A stretch of DNA of 47,974 nt. It comes from Clostridia bacterium (GTDB taxonomy: Bacteria; Bacillota; Clostridia; Christensenellales; Aristaeellaceae). The notes under the pieces are model-generated. The model had not been told where the DNA came from. It did not search any database and worked only from the letters and a program-made list of their open reading frames with translations. Position 1 is the first letter of the stretch. Each line of letters begins with the position of its first letter. The stretch lies in contig JAFTPN010000051.1 of assembly GCA_017463245.1 (NCBI GenBank), positions 1 through 47,974 on the forward strand, written 5' to 3'. Position numbers and translations under genes: made by a program. Positions 4,932 through 47,685 of this stretch are shown one piece after another.

Positions 4932-5969
4932 ATGGACATACAGAAGGTACTGTCGGAGGCTGCGGGCAAGCTGGGCCCCAGCGGACAGGAAATGGAGATC
5001 GCGGCGTATTTTGCCGAGCAGTTCCGTCCTTTTGTGGATGAGGTGACCATCGACAAGATGAACAATGTCATCGCCCACAAGAAGGGCAATGGCCCCAAGG
5101 TGATGCTCTGCGCCCACATGGACGAGATCGGTCTGATGGTGGTGGGCATTGAGGACGACGGCAGCATCCGCCTGGGCAATGTGGGCGGTGTGGATCCCCG
5201 CATTCTGCCTGCCTGCCGGGTATGGGTGCATGGCAAGGAGAAGCTGTTTGGCACCATCGGTGCGCTGCCGCCCCACCTGCTGACGGCGGAGGATCGCCAG
5301 AAGAATTATAATGCCAAGGATCTTTATGTGGATGTGGGTCTGCCCGGCGACAAGGTGAAGGAGCTGGTGCGCATTGGCGACCTGGTGACCTTCAATGTGC
5401 CGCTGACGGAGCTTTTGAACGGTCAGGTGGCGGCCAAGACCATGGACGACCGCGCCTGCGTGGGCATCCTGCTGGTGGCAGCGGAGCGCCTCAGCAAGCT
5501 GCATTGCGATGCGGATGTGTACTTCGTTGGCTCCACCCAGGAGGAGGTTGGCTCCATGGGCGCCATGACGGCGGCCTTTGCCATCGATCCTGACCTGGCG
5601 GTGGCGCTGGACGTGGATCATGCCACCATCCCCGGCAGCCGCCCGGATACCACCGTGGAGGGCGACAGCCTGTGCGCTACCATTGGCCCCTACATTCAGC
5701 CCAAGCTGCTGGATCGGCTGATGAACTGCGCCAAGGAGCATCACGTGAAGCTGCAAACGGCGGTCAGCTCCCGCAGCACTTATACCGATGCGGACGAGGT
5801 GGGCATTGCCCGCGCTGGCGTTCCCACGGTGCTGCTTTCCCTGCCGCTGAAGTATATGCACACCACCGTGGAGACCATCGACCTGCAGGCGCTGAAGGAG
5901 GGCGGACGGCTGATCGCTCACTTCCTCAGCGAGCTGGACGCGGGATGGGAGGATGACCTATGGATCTGA
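4932..5969 (+). CDS. M42 family metallopeptidase (first of three)
   Basis: A 345-residue M42 (glutamyl/leucyl aminopeptidase, TET-type) enzyme. Metal and catalytic motifs are all present: CAHMDEIGL, TMDDRACVG, TQEEVGSMGA with the Glu-Glu pair, ALDVDHAT and LPLKYMHTTVETI. M42 enzymes are dinuclear-metal cytosolic aminopeptidases that form dodecameric tetrahedra and trim oligopeptides. The usual GGTDAG segment is changed to STYTDADE, so substrate choice may differ. The start is ATG 4932, with AAGGAGG 6 bases upstream; the reading frame extends upstream through the repeat but has no signal there. It overlaps the next gene by 10 bases. Confidence 0.93.
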   Translation: MDIQKVLSEAAGKLGPSGQEMEIAAYFAEQFRPFVDEVTIDKMNNVIAHKKGNGPKVMLCAHMDEIGLMVVGIEDDGSIRLGNVGGVDPRILPACRVWVHGKEKLFGTIGALPPHLLTAEDRQKNYNAKDLYVDVGLPGDKVKELVRIGDLVTFNVPLTELLNGQVAAKTMDDRACVGILLVAAERLSKLHCDADVYFVGSTQEEVGSMGAMTAAFAIDPDLAVALDVDHATIPGSRPDTTVEGDSLCATIGPYIQPKLLDRLMNCAKEHHVKLQTAVSSRSTYTDADEVGIARAGVPTVLLSLPLKYMHTTVETIDLQALKEGGRLIAHFLSELDAGWEDDLWI

Positions 5970-12662: not shown

Positions 12663-13961
12663 ATGGATCTATTCACACAGGATGACGCGCCGCTGGCGGA
12701 TCGGATGAGGCCGAGGACGCTGGAGGAGTTTATTGGACAGGAGCATTTGGTGGGGAAGGGGAGGCTGCTGCGCCGGGCGATCGAGGCGGACAGGCTGACT
12801 TCCTCCATCTTCTTTGGGCCGCCCGGGTGCGGCAAAACCACGCTGGCGTCCATCATTGCCAGGGCGACAAAGGCCAACTTTGTGCAGCTGAACGCGGTGA
12901 CCAGCGGCGTGGCGGACGTGCGTGAGGTGCTGAAGCAGGCGCAGGAGCGCCGCAGCCTGTATGGCCAGCCCACTTACCTGCTGCTGGACGAGTGCCACCG
13001 CTGGTCGAAGGCGCAGAGCGACAGCATTCTGCCCGCCATTGAGAAGGGTATCATCCGCTTCATCGGCTCCACCACGGAGAACCCCATGGTGGCCATGACC
13101 CCGGCTATTGTCAGCCGGTGCAGGGTGTTTCAGTTCTATCCCTTGCAGGAGAAGGACGTGCTGACGGCCATGCGCCGCGCCCTGACGGATGCGGAGCGGG
13201 GCTACGGCAGCCTGCGCATTCAGGCGGAGGAGGACGCCCTGCGGCACATTGCCCGCATTGCCAATGGCGATACCCGCGCCGCGCTGGGCGCCATTGAGCT
13301 GGCGGTGCTGACCACCGCTGCGGACGAGGACGGCGTGATCCATGTTGACCTGGCCGTGGCGGAGGAGAGCATCCAGAAGCCCATGCTGCGGTGCGACGAG
13401 AGCTTGTATTACGATATGCTCAGCGCGTTCTGCAAGTCCCTGCGGGGGTCGGACAGCAATGCGGCGCTGGCCTGGTTCGCCCGGCTGAACTACGCGGGGG
13501 TGGATCCGCGGCTGATCGTGCGGCGCATATTGGCGCATGCCAGCGAGGACGTGGGCGTGGCCAACCCCATTGCGCTTTTGCAGGCGGCCGCTGCGGCCAC
13601 CGCCCTGGAAACCATGGGTATGCCGGAGGCACGGCTGCCCATCGCCCAGGCCATTATCGCCGTGTGCGAAAGCCCCAAGTCCAACAGCGTAAGCAGCGCC
13701 GTGGACGCCGCCATGGCCGATGCGGAGAAGGGCGGCTTCGGCCCGGTGCCGGTGCACCTGCGGGACACCCACTACGCGGGCCATGTGCGCATCGGCAGCG
13801 GCGAGGGGTATCTGTATCCCCACGATTTCCCCGGGCATTGGGTGCAGCAGGATTACATGCCCCCGGAGGTCAAGGGCAAAAAGTATTATCAGCCCACGGA
13901 AATGGGACACGAGGCGACCATCCTCAAAAACCAGCAGGCGAGAGGAGGGATGAAGAAGTGA
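12663..13961 (+). CDS. rarA: Replication-associated recombination protein A (AAA+ ATPase)
   Basis: RarA/MgsA, 432 residues, a clamp-loader-like AAA+ ATPase acting at stalled replication forks. Walker A is GPPGCGKTT (residues 52-60), Walker B LLLDECHRW (DE at 109-110; most relatives read DEIHRF), sensor 1 IGSTTENP and arginine finger VSRCRVF. The C-terminal half carries the RarA tetramerisation and end region (HYAGHVRIGSGEGYLYPHDFPGHWVQQDYMP). The start has GGGAGG upstream. Its stop codon overlaps the start of the following kinase gene (GTGA). Confidence 0.96.
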   Translation: MDLFTQDDAPLADRMRPRTLEEFIGQEHLVGKGRLLRRAIEADRLTSSIFFGPPGCGKTTLASIIARATKANFVQLNAVTSGVADVREVLKQAQERRSLYGQPTYLLLDECHRWSKAQSDSILPAIEKGIIRFIGSTTENPMVAMTPAIVSRCRVFQFYPLQEKDVLTAMRRALTDAERGYGSLRIQAEEDALRHIARIANGDTRAALGAIELAVLTTAADEDGVIHVDLAVAEESIQKPMLRCDESLYYDMLSAFCKSLRGSDSNAALAWFARLNYAGVDPRLIVRRILAHASEDVGVANPIALLQAAAAATALETMGMPEARLPIAQAIIAVCESPKSNSVSSAVDAAMADAEKGGFGPVPVHLRDTHYAGHVRIGSGEGYLYPHDFPGHWVQQDYMPPEVKGKKYYQPTEMGHEATILKNQQARGGMKK

Positions 13962-14830
13962 AGCCCATCAAACGTGACGTGAACACCAACAAAGCCTTCA
14001 AAATGGCGGTGGTGACCAACGGCTTGCAGGTAGGGCTGATCGTGGTGATCGTGATCTACATGCTGGTGATGCCGGAAACGGTGATGCACCTGCCCATGGC
14101 GCGCTACATTCTGGCCATAGCGGCCTGCGTGGTGATCTGGGGTGGGGTGGTGGACATCCGCGAGGCCTTCTCCACCCGTAAGCTGATGCACCAGCTGGAC
14201 GACATGGACGACACCATCCAGGCCATGACCACCCTGAACAACACCCTGCGCTCCCAGCGGCACGACTTTCTGAACCACCTGCAGGTGGTGTACAGCCTGA
14301 TGGAGATGGAGGAGTACCAGGAGGCTAATGCCTACATCGAGAAGGTGTACGGCGCCATCACCTCCGTGAGCCGGGTGATGAAGACCGCCAACCCGGCCAT
14401 CAACGCGCTGCTCCAGGTGAAGCTGGCCGCCTGCGAAAAGGAAGGCGTGAAGGTCAGGCTGAACATCCAGTCCGCGTGGAAGGATCTGCCCATCCCCGGC
14501 TGGGAAATGTGCAAGGTGCTGTCCAACCTGATCGACAACGCCATCGACGCCCTGGAGGAAGTGACCGACAGGCAGCTGACGGTGACGCTGACCGAAGACC
14601 TGAAGTCCTTCCGCTTCAGCGTGAGCAACAACGGCCCCATGATCCCCCTGAAGAGCCAGAAGACCATCTTCAATGCGGGCATCACCACCAAGGCGGCGGG
14701 GCACGGCATGGGATTGTTCATTGTGAAGAAGGTGCTGAACGACCGGGGCGGCGATATCACCCTGACCAGCGATGCGGAATGCACCACCTTCTCCGGCTTT
14801 GTACCCAAGGAGATCACCTCCATTAAGTAA
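13958..14830 (+). CDS. Sensor histidine kinase, SpoOB-type dimerisation domain
   Basis: A 290-residue kinase. Two membrane helices (about residues 16-37 and 49-66) are followed by a SpoOB-like helical hairpin with the phospho-accepting His at 102 (LRSQRHDFLNHLQV), then an HATPase domain with N-box NLIDNAIDA and G-box GHGMGLFIVKK. There is almost no extracellular loop, which fits AgrC/CitA-like or membrane-stress sensing kinases. The start is GTG 13958, overlapping the rarA stop, with AGGAGGG 7 bases upstream. No response regulator lies nearby, so it is an orphan in this window. Confidence 0.88.
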   Translation: MKPIKRDVNTNKAFKMAVVTNGLQVGLIVVIVIYMLVMPETVMHLPMARYILAIAACVVIWGGVVDIREAFSTRKLMHQLDDMDDTIQAMTTLNNTLRSQRHDFLNHLQVVYSLMEMEEYQEANAYIEKVYGAITSVSRVMKTANPAINALLQVKLAACEKEGVKVRLNIQSAWKDLPIPGWEMCKVLSNLIDNAIDALEEVTDRQLTVTLTEDLKSFRFSVSNNGPMIPLKSQKTIFNAGITTKAAGHGMGLFIVKKVLNDRGGDITLTSDAECTTFSGFVPKEITSIK

Positions 14831-14845
14831 AACTGAAACATCCGG

Positions 14846-14877
14846 CGGCGCAGCTTTGTTGCAAAAAAGCTGCGCCG
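14846..14877 (+). terminator. Hairpin terminator after sensor kinase
   Basis: 12-bp stem CGGCGCAGCTTT/AAAGCTGCGCCG, 8-base loop, followed by the T-rich tail CTATTGTGTTTT. Confidence 0.7.
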
Positions 14878-14907
14878 CTATTGTGTTTTGGGCATGAAAT
14901 TCCGTAA

Positions 14908-15170
14908 TAAGTTGTCCACATTGTGGATAAGCAAACCGACCGCCGTCTGTGGATTGTGCTGGGGAAAAGCGAATTGTGACGAATGGAGCTCGGGTCGGTT
15001 TTGCAAAAAGGTTGAAATAGCAGGGTTTGCGGGAAGATGTTGCATTTTGTCGGGTCGGTTCTTCACAAATTATCCACATGGGAAGCTGATGGATTCAATC
15101 ATAGTTTTCCACATTATCCACAGAGTTTTCCACAGAATTGTACAAAACAATTGTGAAGAACCGACCGCGA
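14908..15170. promoter_or_regulatory. DnaA-box cluster with flanking inverted repeats
   Basis: Noncoding region. Perfect TTATCCACA boxes lie at 14922-14930 (minus strand), 15070-15078 and 15114-15122; one-mismatch boxes are TTGTCCACA 14912-14920, TTTTCCACA 15105-15113 and TTTTCCACA 15126-15134; a weaker one is at 14948-14956 (minus). The rightmost four lie between a perfect 16-bp inverted repeat, GGTCGGTTCTTCACAA at 15053-15068 and its complement at 15151-15166. The AACCGACC word also recurs at 14934-14941 and, inverted, at 14993-15000. It could be a replication origin or a DnaA-titration/regulatory cluster; dnaA and dnaN are not adjacent, and genes on both sides point towards it. Confidence 0.7.
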
Positions 15171-15279
15171 GTCGGGTGAAATCAGGGTGAATCGGCGGGA
15201 AAATATGAAGTAGAAGCATAGAAAAGACCAAAAGTGCAGAACAACCAAAATCAGCCGTCCGCCAGGACTGTAATCGTAT

Positions 15280-15410
15280 CCGGCGGCTTTGCCGCCGGGG
15301 CGGGGCGTTTTCCGCTTGCGGAAAACATTCCTTACACTCTTTCGCGACCGGGAGCGTAAGCGACCAGCGAAAGAGTGCAAACTCCTCGAAATGGCTCTGC
15401 CATTTCGAGG
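15280..15410. repeat. Train of four hairpins
   Basis: Four adjacent perfect stems in noncoding DNA: CCGGCGGC/GCCGCCGG (15280-15298), GTTTTCCGC/GCGGAAAAC (15307-15326), CACTCTTTCGC/GCGAAAGAGTG (15335-15377) and CCTCGAAATGGC/GCCATTTCGAGG (15384-15410). It resembles the hairpin modules of the composite repeats in style but shares no arm sequences with them. Apart from these, I see nothing in 15167-15279. Confidence 0.75.
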
Positions 15411-15414
15411 ACAC

Positions 15415-15442
15415 AAAAAAGCGGATGGCCGCTGCCATCCGC
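15415..15442 (-). terminator. Terminator of DUF1292 gene
   Basis: Read on the minus strand: GCGGATGGC, 4-base loop, GCCATCCGC, then TTTTTT. Confidence 0.85.
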
Positions 15443-15478
15443 GCAGGTACCGTATTCAGTTGAAAGAAAGGGCAGGGG

Positions 15479-15874
15479 TTACTCTTCGTCGTCCTCAGCG
15501 TTGAGCTTGGTGGAGGCGATTTCGATCAGCTTGGCCTCGAGTGCCTGGTCTTCCACGGGAACGAACTCTTCGACCTCTTCACCGTCCACGGTGGACTGGA
15601 TCACCTTCATAATGTAGCAGGTGATTTCTTCGGTCTCATCGATGTCTTCGCAGCCGCAGGCGCACTGTTCATCATGCTCATGCTCGTGGTGACATTCTTC
15701 GCAGTCACAATCATCATCGTCGATGCTGTCGGTCAGGATCACGTATTCCTCGCCATTGTAGAAGAAATAGTCAACAACCTGCATCAAAATGGTATTACCT
15801 TCGTCGTCAGTCATCTCGATGATGTCCAGGGATTCGTTTTCATCTTCGTACAACGGGATCACCTCTTTCTTCAA
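15479..15874 (-). CDS. DUF1292 protein with a Cys/His-rich insertion
   Basis: A 131-residue acidic protein. The ends match DUF1292 (EGNTILMQVVDYFFYNGEEYVIL at the start; DGEEVEEFVPVEDQALEAKLIEIA near the end), a short Bacillota domain of unknown function. Between residues about 52 and 80 is an insertion with Cys at 56, 58, 61, 71, 73 and 75 and His at 62, 63, 65 and 67, which would suit metal binding. It has its own promoter and terminator. Relatives normally lie in the yrrL-yrzL-yrzB neighbourhood; only DUF896 is close here. Confidence 0.88.
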   Translation of the reverse strand: MKKEVIPLYEDENESLDIIEMTDDEGNTILMQVVDYFFYNGEEYVILTDSIDDDDCDCEECHHEHEHDEQCACGCEDIDETEEITCYIMKVIQSTVDGEEVEEFVPVEDQALEAKLIEIASTKLNAEDDEE

Positions 15875-16027: not shown

Positions 16028-16056
16028 ATTATACACACAGATGGCCATTTTGGCAA
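16028..16056 (-). promoter_or_regulatory. Promoter of DUF1292 gene, overlapped by a dyad
   Basis: Minus-strand TTGCCA (16056-16051), 17-bp spacer, TATAAT (16033-16028). The -35 is part of an inverted repeat TTTGGCA/TGCCAAA spanning about 16050-16071, which could be an operator or a weak terminator of the DUF896 gene. The 155-bp leader before the start codon shows nothing I can name. Confidence 0.7.
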
Positions 16057-28596: not shown

Positions 28597-28682
28597 GGAG
28601 GTGTATCGAAGTGGTCATAACGGGACTGACTCGAAATCAGTTGAGGGGCAACTCTCCGTGGGTTCGAATCCCACCGCCTCCG
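28597..28682 (+). tRNA. tRNA-Ser (anticodon CGA)
   Basis: Class II tRNA, 86 bases. The acceptor stem GGAGGTG pairs with CGCCTCC (28675-28681), with discriminator G at 28682; the anticodon arm is ACTGA-CTCGAAA-TCAGT with CGA at 28632-28634 (reads UCG). A long variable arm and a GGTTCGAATCC T-loop confirm it. CCA is not encoded. Confidence 0.97.
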
Positions 28683-46851: not shown

Positions 46852-47685
46852 ATGAAGAAGACGATGAAACGCCTGGCAGCGCTGGTTGTGGTAATGCTGA
46901 TGACGGCATCCAGCTCTACTGCGGCTTTCGCCGACGACCTCTCCGCTGGAACGCCGACTGACCTGGCGGCGGCACCGGTTACTTTGGCAGAGGAAACGGT
47001 AGCGGCACCGGCGGATGAAGTAACCGTCGAACCCGCCGCCGAGCCTGTGGTCGAAGCAACTGCTGAGCCGACTGCGGTGCCCACCGCCGAGCCGACCGTG
47101 GAACCCACTGCTGAGCCGACTGCTGAGCCCACCGTGGAACCTACCGCTGAGCCGACTGCGGAACCCACCGCTGAACCCACCGAAGAGCCCGTTGTGGAAG
47201 CTACTGAGGAACCCGCCGTTGAGGCCACCGAAGAGTCCGTTGCGGAAGCCACCGAAGAGCCGACCGCAGAACCCACCGTGGAGCCGACGGTCGAGCCCGC
47301 CGCTGAACCCGTTGAAGAACCTACGGTTGAGCCTACTGCGGAACCCACCGTGGAACCCACGGTTGAACCCACTCCCGTAGTGGAAACCCCTGCTGAAACC
47401 GACCAGCTCACCGAAGAACCGACCGAGAGTCTGGTTTCTGAAGAGGTTCCCGAGGTCACCGGCCGCGTGGTGGTGGAACTTCGCAACCAAGGTCAGCTGT
47501 ACTTCGGTGATGAGGTCACGCTGGTCGCCCGCGTATACGATGTGGAAGGCAACTACAGCATCGTGTGGCAGGTGAAGGAGGGCGACACCTGGAAGGATGT
47601 CGAGATCGGCCAGACCTACACCTTCATCCTCACCCAGGAAAACGCCTGCAAGGAATATCGCGCAGTACTCACCATGAGCGAATAA
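46852..47685 (+). CDS. Secreted Glu/Pro/Thr-repeat protein with C-terminal Ig-like domain
   Basis: 277 residues. Signal peptide residues 1-27 (ending AAFA). From about 55 to 190 are some 30 four-residue units of the T-A/V-E-P and A-T-E-E type, an extended acidic stalk. The last 75 residues (GRVVVELRNQGQLYFGDEVTLVARVYDVEGNYSIVWQV) form an Ig-like/bacterial surface beta domain. There is no LPXTG or lipobox. AGGAGG lies upstream. The minus-strand frames here are artefacts of the repeat. It could be a surface stalk, adhesin or pilus-associated substrate. Confidence 0.85.
   Translation: MKKTMKRLAALVVVMLMTASSSTAAFADDLSAGTPTDLAAAPVTLAEETVAAPADEVTVEPAAEPVVEATAEPTAVPTAEPTVEPTAEPTAEPTVEPTAEPTAEPTAEPTEEPVVEATEEPAVEATEESVAEATEEPTAEPTVEPTVEPAAEPVEEPTVEPTAEPTVEPTVEPTPVVETPAETDQLTEEPTESLVSEEVPEVTGRVVVELRNQGQLYFGDEVTLVARVYDVEGNYSIVWQVKEGDTWKDVEIGQTYTFILTQENACKEYRAVLTMSE

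Follow-up and report, generated by a model that had tools for sequence, protein, structure and literature searches.

The DNA under study contains a cluster of DnaA boxes that is real, conserved and distinct from oriC. It is of a fairly ordinary kind, and is new for this lineage; a literature search found no paper joining Christensenellales, replication origin and DnaA. The best explanation is that this is a conserved extra-oriC element that titrates DnaA, to which we assign a probability of about 65%. The binding of DnaA, its titration and any effect on timing are predictions made from the sequence and by analogy with other bacteria.

The stretch analyzed (the window) is 47,974 bp on contig C21 of the source assembly G000, which comprises 92 contigs. 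The cluster is linked to neither dnaA nor dnaN, which are on contigs C15 and C12 respectively, and is thus away from dnaA as the initial annotation had it. It was compared with a set of 18 genomes of the same genus, 14 of which have a DUF1292 match.

Organization of the DnaA-box cluster

The features are collected in Table 1. A motif scan finds seven boxes with a TCCACA core within 14912–15134, and the three that are perfect (14922(−), 15070(+) and 15114(+)) are the only copies of TTATCCACA in the whole 47,974 bp window. The boxes form two groups. The left one consists of a head-to-head pair and one further box, the right one of four boxes, all on the + strand and all within an inverted repeat. 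The arms of the repeat are 16 bp in length and 100% complementary. The initial annotation had described a cluster of perfect and near-perfect boxes, a repeat enclosing four of them and a gene-free zone on which genes converge, and all of this is borne out by the present analysis. The zone is a gap of 648 bp (14831–15478) bounded by the convergent ORF ends 14830(+) and 15479(−), and its GC content is reduced. The element also carries four copies of GGTCGGTT, at 14934(−), 14993(+), 15053(+) and 15159(−); the first two had been overlooked previously.

Table 1. Coordinates of features in and around the DnaA-box cluster. Positions are those of the window unless a contig is named.
Feature	Position	Strand	Remarks
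Terminator-like hairpin, 3′ of kinase gene, left side of element	14844..14879	+	Consensus match only
Near-perfect DnaA box TTGTCCACA	14912..14920	+	Motif scan; reads TTATCCACA in G014 and G004
Perfect DnaA box TTATCCACA	14922..14930	−	Head to head with 14912 box, 1 bp spacer
GGTCGGTT site 1	14934..14941	−	Motif scan
Degenerate DnaA box CAATCCACA	14948..14956	−	CTGTGGA core invariant across six genomes
GGTCGGTT site 2	14993..15000	+	Motif scan
Inverted repeat, left arm GGTCGGTTCTTCACAA	15053..15068	+	Includes GGTCGGTT site 3
Perfect DnaA box TTATCCACA	15070..15078	+	Motif scan
DnaA box TTTTCCACA	15105..15113	+	Motif scan
Perfect DnaA box TTATCCACA	15114..15122	+	Abuts 15105 box
DnaA box TTTTCCACA	15126..15134	+	Motif scan
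Inverted repeat, right arm	15151..15166	−	Includes GGTCGGTT site 4
Terminator-like hairpin, 3′ of DUF1292-like gene, right side of element	15421..15442	−	Consensus match only
Left neighbor, SpoOB-type/GHKL sensor histidine kinase	13961..14830	+	Conserved part; start not fixed
Right neighbor, acidic DUF1292-like protein	15479..15874	−	Pfam match under curated cut-off
addA-internal boxes	G000 C12:17305-17390; G013 C28:32838-32923; G001 C11:112953-113049

The boxes are more frequent than in shuffled sequence. TTWTCCACA occurs seven times in the window compared with 0.42 expected, and none of 100 shuffles had seven or more. Five of these are in the gap, where dinucleotide shuffles gave a mean of 0.022 and a maximum of 2, with no instance of five or more in 5000. 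A perfect 16 bp repeat was reached in none of 1000 shuffles (maximum 15). A copy of TTATACACA at 16029 is excluded from the cluster count. It overlaps the −10 element of a strong promoter-like site (11/12 match, 16028–16056) before the DUF1292-like gene. Of the 14 genomes of the genus that possess DUF1292, 11 (G000 among them) have a TTATACACA box upstream of it. Elsewhere in the window, a tRNA gene at 28597–28682 is the sole Rfam match at the gathering threshold. An ORF at 46852–47685 appears by eye to encode a secreted protein with long Glu-Pro-Thr-type repeats, and another with a signal-like start runs from ∼47812 past the window end.

The bracketing of boxes by an inverted repeat could point to an origin derived from a plasmid or mobile element and left in the chromosome, and a plasmid-derived origin had been suggested in the initial annotation. 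This is now scarcely credible. There is no match among 72,556 plasmid and 50,697 phage records, and ten nearby ORFs (eight with a Pfam match) include no replication initiator or plasmid family. The element is single-copy in G000; the only other matches to a 371 bp stretch containing it are two of 30–35 bp, each with DnaA boxes. It is moreover conserved at the genus level, with the boxes kept more widely than the arms.

Conservation of the element in related genomes

Used as a DNA query, the 371 bp stretch gives matches of at least 120 bp in G013, G004 and G014 among the 18 genomes of the genus. With the footprint features (boxes, arms and GGTCGGTT sites) defined on G000, we counted the columns that are invariant in these three and G000. 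They make up 51 of 63 in the boxes, 26 of 32 in the repeat arms and 10 of 16 in the GGTCGGTT sites outside the arms, and 46 of 165 elsewhere. Pooling the features gives 87/111 against 46/165 for the rest, with a Fisher p of about 1e-16 that ignores shared ancestry. On adding G017 and G008 to make six genomes, the invariant columns fall to 33/63 in the boxes, 5/32 in the arms and 11/165 in the remainder. Since the boxes hold better once these two genomes join, they look older than the arms.

Ten of the 14 genomes of the genus with a DUF1292 match have the cluster. Nine of these carry between two and four perfect boxes on the 3′ side of DUF1292; in G017 two lie beside the kinase gene. G002, G003, G006 and G012 (4/14) have no cluster at DUF1292.

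We extended the survey to 80 DUF1292 loci of public genomes, of which 74 were usable after dropping six with fewer than 900 bases downstream. The 1 kb 3′ of the DUF1292 match contains 0.63 boxes/kb (47 in 75 kb), and elsewhere the density is 0.029 boxes/kb (35 in 1,204 kb). Two or more boxes lie downstream in 12 of the 74 loci, the remaining 62 having fewer than two, and eight of the 12 positive loci are the same-genus assemblies over again. More distant loci bearing a cluster are L181 (39% identity) and L192 (36% identity), while at L171 and L174 the boxes are at least 880 bases away from DUF1292. A five-box cluster is also seen at L151, 3.7 kb from DUF1292. In three near-closed genomes (G105, G144 and G041) the DUF1292 homologs lack a cluster and lie a long way from oriC. 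Conservation is therefore that of a cluster within the genus and at a few other loci, and is not family-wide.

The flanking genes change and their convergence is retained

The identity of the genes beside the cluster is variable. It is flanked by the kinase and DUF1292 genes in G000, G013, G014 and G008. In G004 the kinase gene is elsewhere, with no perfect box around it, and the cluster lies between DUF1292 and a Bmp-type lipoprotein gene. In G017 it lies between the kinase and a MerR regulator. DUF1292 is paired with an RmlD-type reductase 1.4 kb on in G001, with a LMW phosphatase in G007 and G009, and with a hydrolase at L192. At L181 DUF1292 is accompanied by an ORF without a Pfam match, beyond which lies a kinase of identical Pfam composition. 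The flanking genes converge in 11 of 12 cluster cases, the exception being G015. The neighbors vary and the cluster persists, which speaks for the element having a function of its own and against control of any one neighbor.

This bears on the possibility that DnaA regulates transcription of a neighboring gene through the region. At some clusters of B. subtilis, DnaA is described as regulating transcription (PMC4447404), and there is a weak promoter-like match (9/12) at 15098–15069(−) in the window. In G015 the gene adjoining the cluster points away from it. Against this, both neighbors in the window terminate at the gap, each followed by a terminator-like hairpin, the flanks converge in 11 of 12 cases despite their varying identity, and the gap contains no Rfam RNA family. 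We therefore regard transcriptional control as distinctly unlikely.

Location of the replication origin

The likely origin is directly upstream of dnaN, on a contig other than that of the cluster. The 851 bp across the dnaN start on G000 C12 contains DnaA boxes followed by CCCCCTACTACTACTGCTGATTATTATATAATATA, giving a layout of boxes, a CTA-repeat DnaA-trio and an AT-rich stretch. Boxes with a DnaA-trio are the arrangement reported for the basal unwinding system (PMC6669920). Of 18 dnaN loci, 17 have the layout directly upstream of the gene. A pattern search detects it in 11, and it was recognized by eye in the other six (L255, L259, L264, L270, L262 and L272); it is also present in G105. In L255, L262, L264 and L270 the C-run is short or missing. 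L258 and L265, which duplicate L257 and L264, were left out. At the eighteenth locus (L266, from a chicken-gut assembly) dnaA itself is directly upstream of dnaN, as is reported to be typical of Firmicutes (PMC7561715). Five of the 24 genomes searched lack a dnaN match, including those of L181 and L192.

The dnaA gene of G000 is on C15 between DegV and a set of Rrf2 (IscR-like)/class-V aminotransferase (IscS-like)/NifU_N (IscU-like) genes. It is on a separate contig from dnaN in G000, and the two genes are separated by over 1 Mb in G105 and G144 and by 47 kb in G041 (split loci: G000 C12 ∼22.6 kb (L097), L006, G105 C1, G144 C1 and G041 C3). In these split genomes a trio-bearing origin-like site remains at dnaN. 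In G001 the gene order is dnaN-recF-addA. Three genomes of the family (G069, G082 and G127) have two strong DnaA-family matches each.

GC skew was examined where contigs are long. In G105 (main contig 3.26 Mb, 10 kb bins) it is negative over 1.50–1.64 Mb, of mixed sign as far as roughly 1.72 Mb, and positive from there to 1.887 Mb. The dnaN-side origin at 1.671 Mb is inside the mixed zone, and dnaA is at 0.459 Mb. The cumulative minimum is near 1.72 Mb, beside a low-GC stretch and about 49 kb from the dnaN-side origin, so the skew fixes the origin only within the mixed zone. There is a further box pair at 1.749 Mb. In G144, whose dnaN is at 2.592 Mb and dnaA at 1.307 Mb, the skew switches between the samples at 2.55 and 2.59 Mb. 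Of the 14 samples taken, those at 0.4 and 1.4 Mb show a weakly positive skew although they belong to the side that is otherwise negative. The skew of G001 is near zero along the whole contig, and is uninformative. The initial annotation had named a skew minimum elsewhere as one sign that would refute its proposal; this is partly borne out, the minimum having been located in the relatives and not in the 92-contig G000.

Could the cluster nevertheless be a chromosomal origin, main or alternative, as the initial annotation had considered? Its boxes are densely packed, and the intergenic region that holds them is reduced in GC. Yet there is no change in the sign of the skew across it, with values of +0.078 (left) and +0.045 (right) in the window, −0.045/−0.052 in G013 and −0.051/−0.030 in G014 (over 18 kb only), the latter two in the opposite orientation. 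The cluster therefore appears to lie inside one replichore. A scan for the DnaA-trio finds none in the cluster; the same scan detects the dnaN-side origin on C12. The lone match in the window, at 5332, is outside the cluster and chance-like. Taken with the box-trio layout at dnaN and the skew switches around there in G105 and G144, this makes an origin at the cluster very improbable.

Distance to oriC and a second box array

In G000 the cluster and oriC lie on different contigs. In G001 a single contig contains the cluster (72.1–72.2 kb), a second array of boxes (109.7–109.8 kb) and the origin (118.4–118.7 kb), placing the cluster 46.2 kb and the second array 8.6 kb from the origin. The second array is separated from the dnaN-side origin by 12.2 kb in G000 and 11.5 kb in G013, and match coordinates put it some 8 kb from dnaN in G003 and G007. 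Such arrays have three to six perfect boxes at each of ten loci (L008:6813-6905, corresponding to G000 C12:34812-34904, L012–L017, L019, L020 and L080). A ferritin-like gene, the homolog of that in G000, starts beside the array in eight of the ten; L013 and L015 are different arrays. In G000, G013 and G001 the array nearer oriC has four perfect boxes compared with three in the cluster. It may matter more than the cluster.

Two other sets of boxes lie in coding sequence. Boxes within the addA coding region (Table 1) share spacings of 17 and 60 bp in three genomes. Box-like sequence on G000 C42 was rejected as a further cluster, since it falls inside a long coding frame. This open frame of more than 2,150 codons (L007:3017-9493) has matches to an SNF2-type helicase and weak ones to an Eco57I-type methylase, and probably belongs to an integrative element.

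The bracketing motif

In the four closest genomes the GGTCGGTTCTTCA arms and GTCGGTTCTTCA are confined to the element. Across the 18 genomes of the genus GTCGGTTCTTCA has nine matches, seven in the element and two in long open frames (G015 and G017), so that GGTCGGTT does not mark a wider regulon. Nor is it a general DnaA-partner motif, not being beside the boxes at dnaA in relatives. In G000 CCGACC adjoins a box upstream of dnaA, but the dnaA-linked boxes of G013, G017, G001, G015 and G010 have none next to them, and G006 has GTCGGT 57 bp from the single box of its dnaA locus. A GGTCGGTT pair at 47.4 kb in the window is part of a coding repeat. The arms were rejected as a paired stem, given that those of relatives keep the motif yet match each other incompletely, and that over six genomes the arms vary more than the boxes. 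TTCTTCACA and TTATNCACA are one base apart. Our guess is that the GGTCGGTT(CTTCA) sites bind a second factor or serve as degenerate DnaA contacts.

Two proposals would give the motif a role. In the first, a dedicated second factor, or a loop formed by DnaA, would clamp the four-box core via the paired GGTCGGTTCTTCA sites, making the element a composite site of DnaA regulation. Acting jointly with the oriC-proximal array upstream of the ferritin-like gene, it would replace control lost on separation of dnaA and oriC in this family. This is conceivable, and we think it unlikely. In the second, the element is a regulator like datA or DARS, where assembled DnaA changes nucleotide state and the GGTCGGTT sites bind a helper protein. 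The E. coli elements datA, DARS1 and DARS2 are described as non-coding groups of boxes off oriC that are conserved among relatives, as is the cluster, with three boxes in the DARS cores and five plus an IHF site in datA (PMC4585315). The head-to-head pair and third box on the left, and the four direct boxes with bracketing non-DnaA motifs on the right, could be viewed in this light. DARS1 reportedly requires no protein factor (PMC4585315). The likeness is one of box counts. The IHF consensus WATCAANNNNTTR is absent from the window, a weak test as 0.58 are expected by chance, and datA and DARS are reported to be absent in B. subtilis (PMC13220808). A regulator of this kind therefore seems rather improbable.

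A probable role in titration of DnaA

Titration of DnaA, as at the sites of B. subtilis with which the initial annotation compared the cluster, is the best supported of the readings. Conservation, the convergent intergenic position and proximity to oriC in one relative favor it; DnaA binding and an effect on initiation are what we infer. DnaA would load cooperatively on about seven boxes in the two groups, namely the head-to-head pair with its weak box and the four direct boxes inside the inverted repeat. DnaA held by the element would shrink the pool free for the start of replication. If the element is in the origin region (46 kb away in G001), it would be copied soon after initiation and take up newly made DnaA, and this uptake by the duplicated element might help to postpone re-initiation.

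The model case is B. subtilis, which also has groups of several boxes away from oriC (Okumura et al. 2012, cited in PMC13220808). A region of 10 DnaA sites there, one of eight of high affinity in vitro, is described as downstream of both gcp and ydiF (PMC4447404), and the cluster in the window is likewise downstream of both its neighbors. Deletion of six clusters is reported to cause early initiation (PMC5295017, PMC13220808), although even there the case is a modest one. The B. subtilis clusters differ in their genes and lineage. The available text of those accounts makes no mention of GGTCGGTT-type motifs or of an inverted repeat. In E. coli a concentration of boxes near the origin has been proposed to titrate DnaA (Olivi et al. 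2025, PMC12371093); that is reported as a trend in density over the origin region, whereas here there are discrete compact clusters. The bipartite oriC1/oriC2 of C. difficile (PMC7561715) has clusters of boxes too. It is the dnaN-side origin of this lineage that resembles oriC2 as described with its CTACTACTA trio (PMC7561715), and unlike the C. difficile oriC the cluster in the window has no trio or skew switch and adjoins neither dnaA nor dnaN.

The cluster is thus a sequence-conserved, non-oriC group of DnaA boxes in a clostridial lineage represented here by metagenome assemblies alone. Its footprint and changed neighbors suggest that the element itself is kept. Given that the origin-like site is at dnaN and dnaA is elsewhere in the relatives examined, predicting the origin from dnaA alone would fail. 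If the titration reading is true, it would extend a little-tested idea from Bacillus to a lineage in which the copy number of dnaA is uncoupled from oriC.
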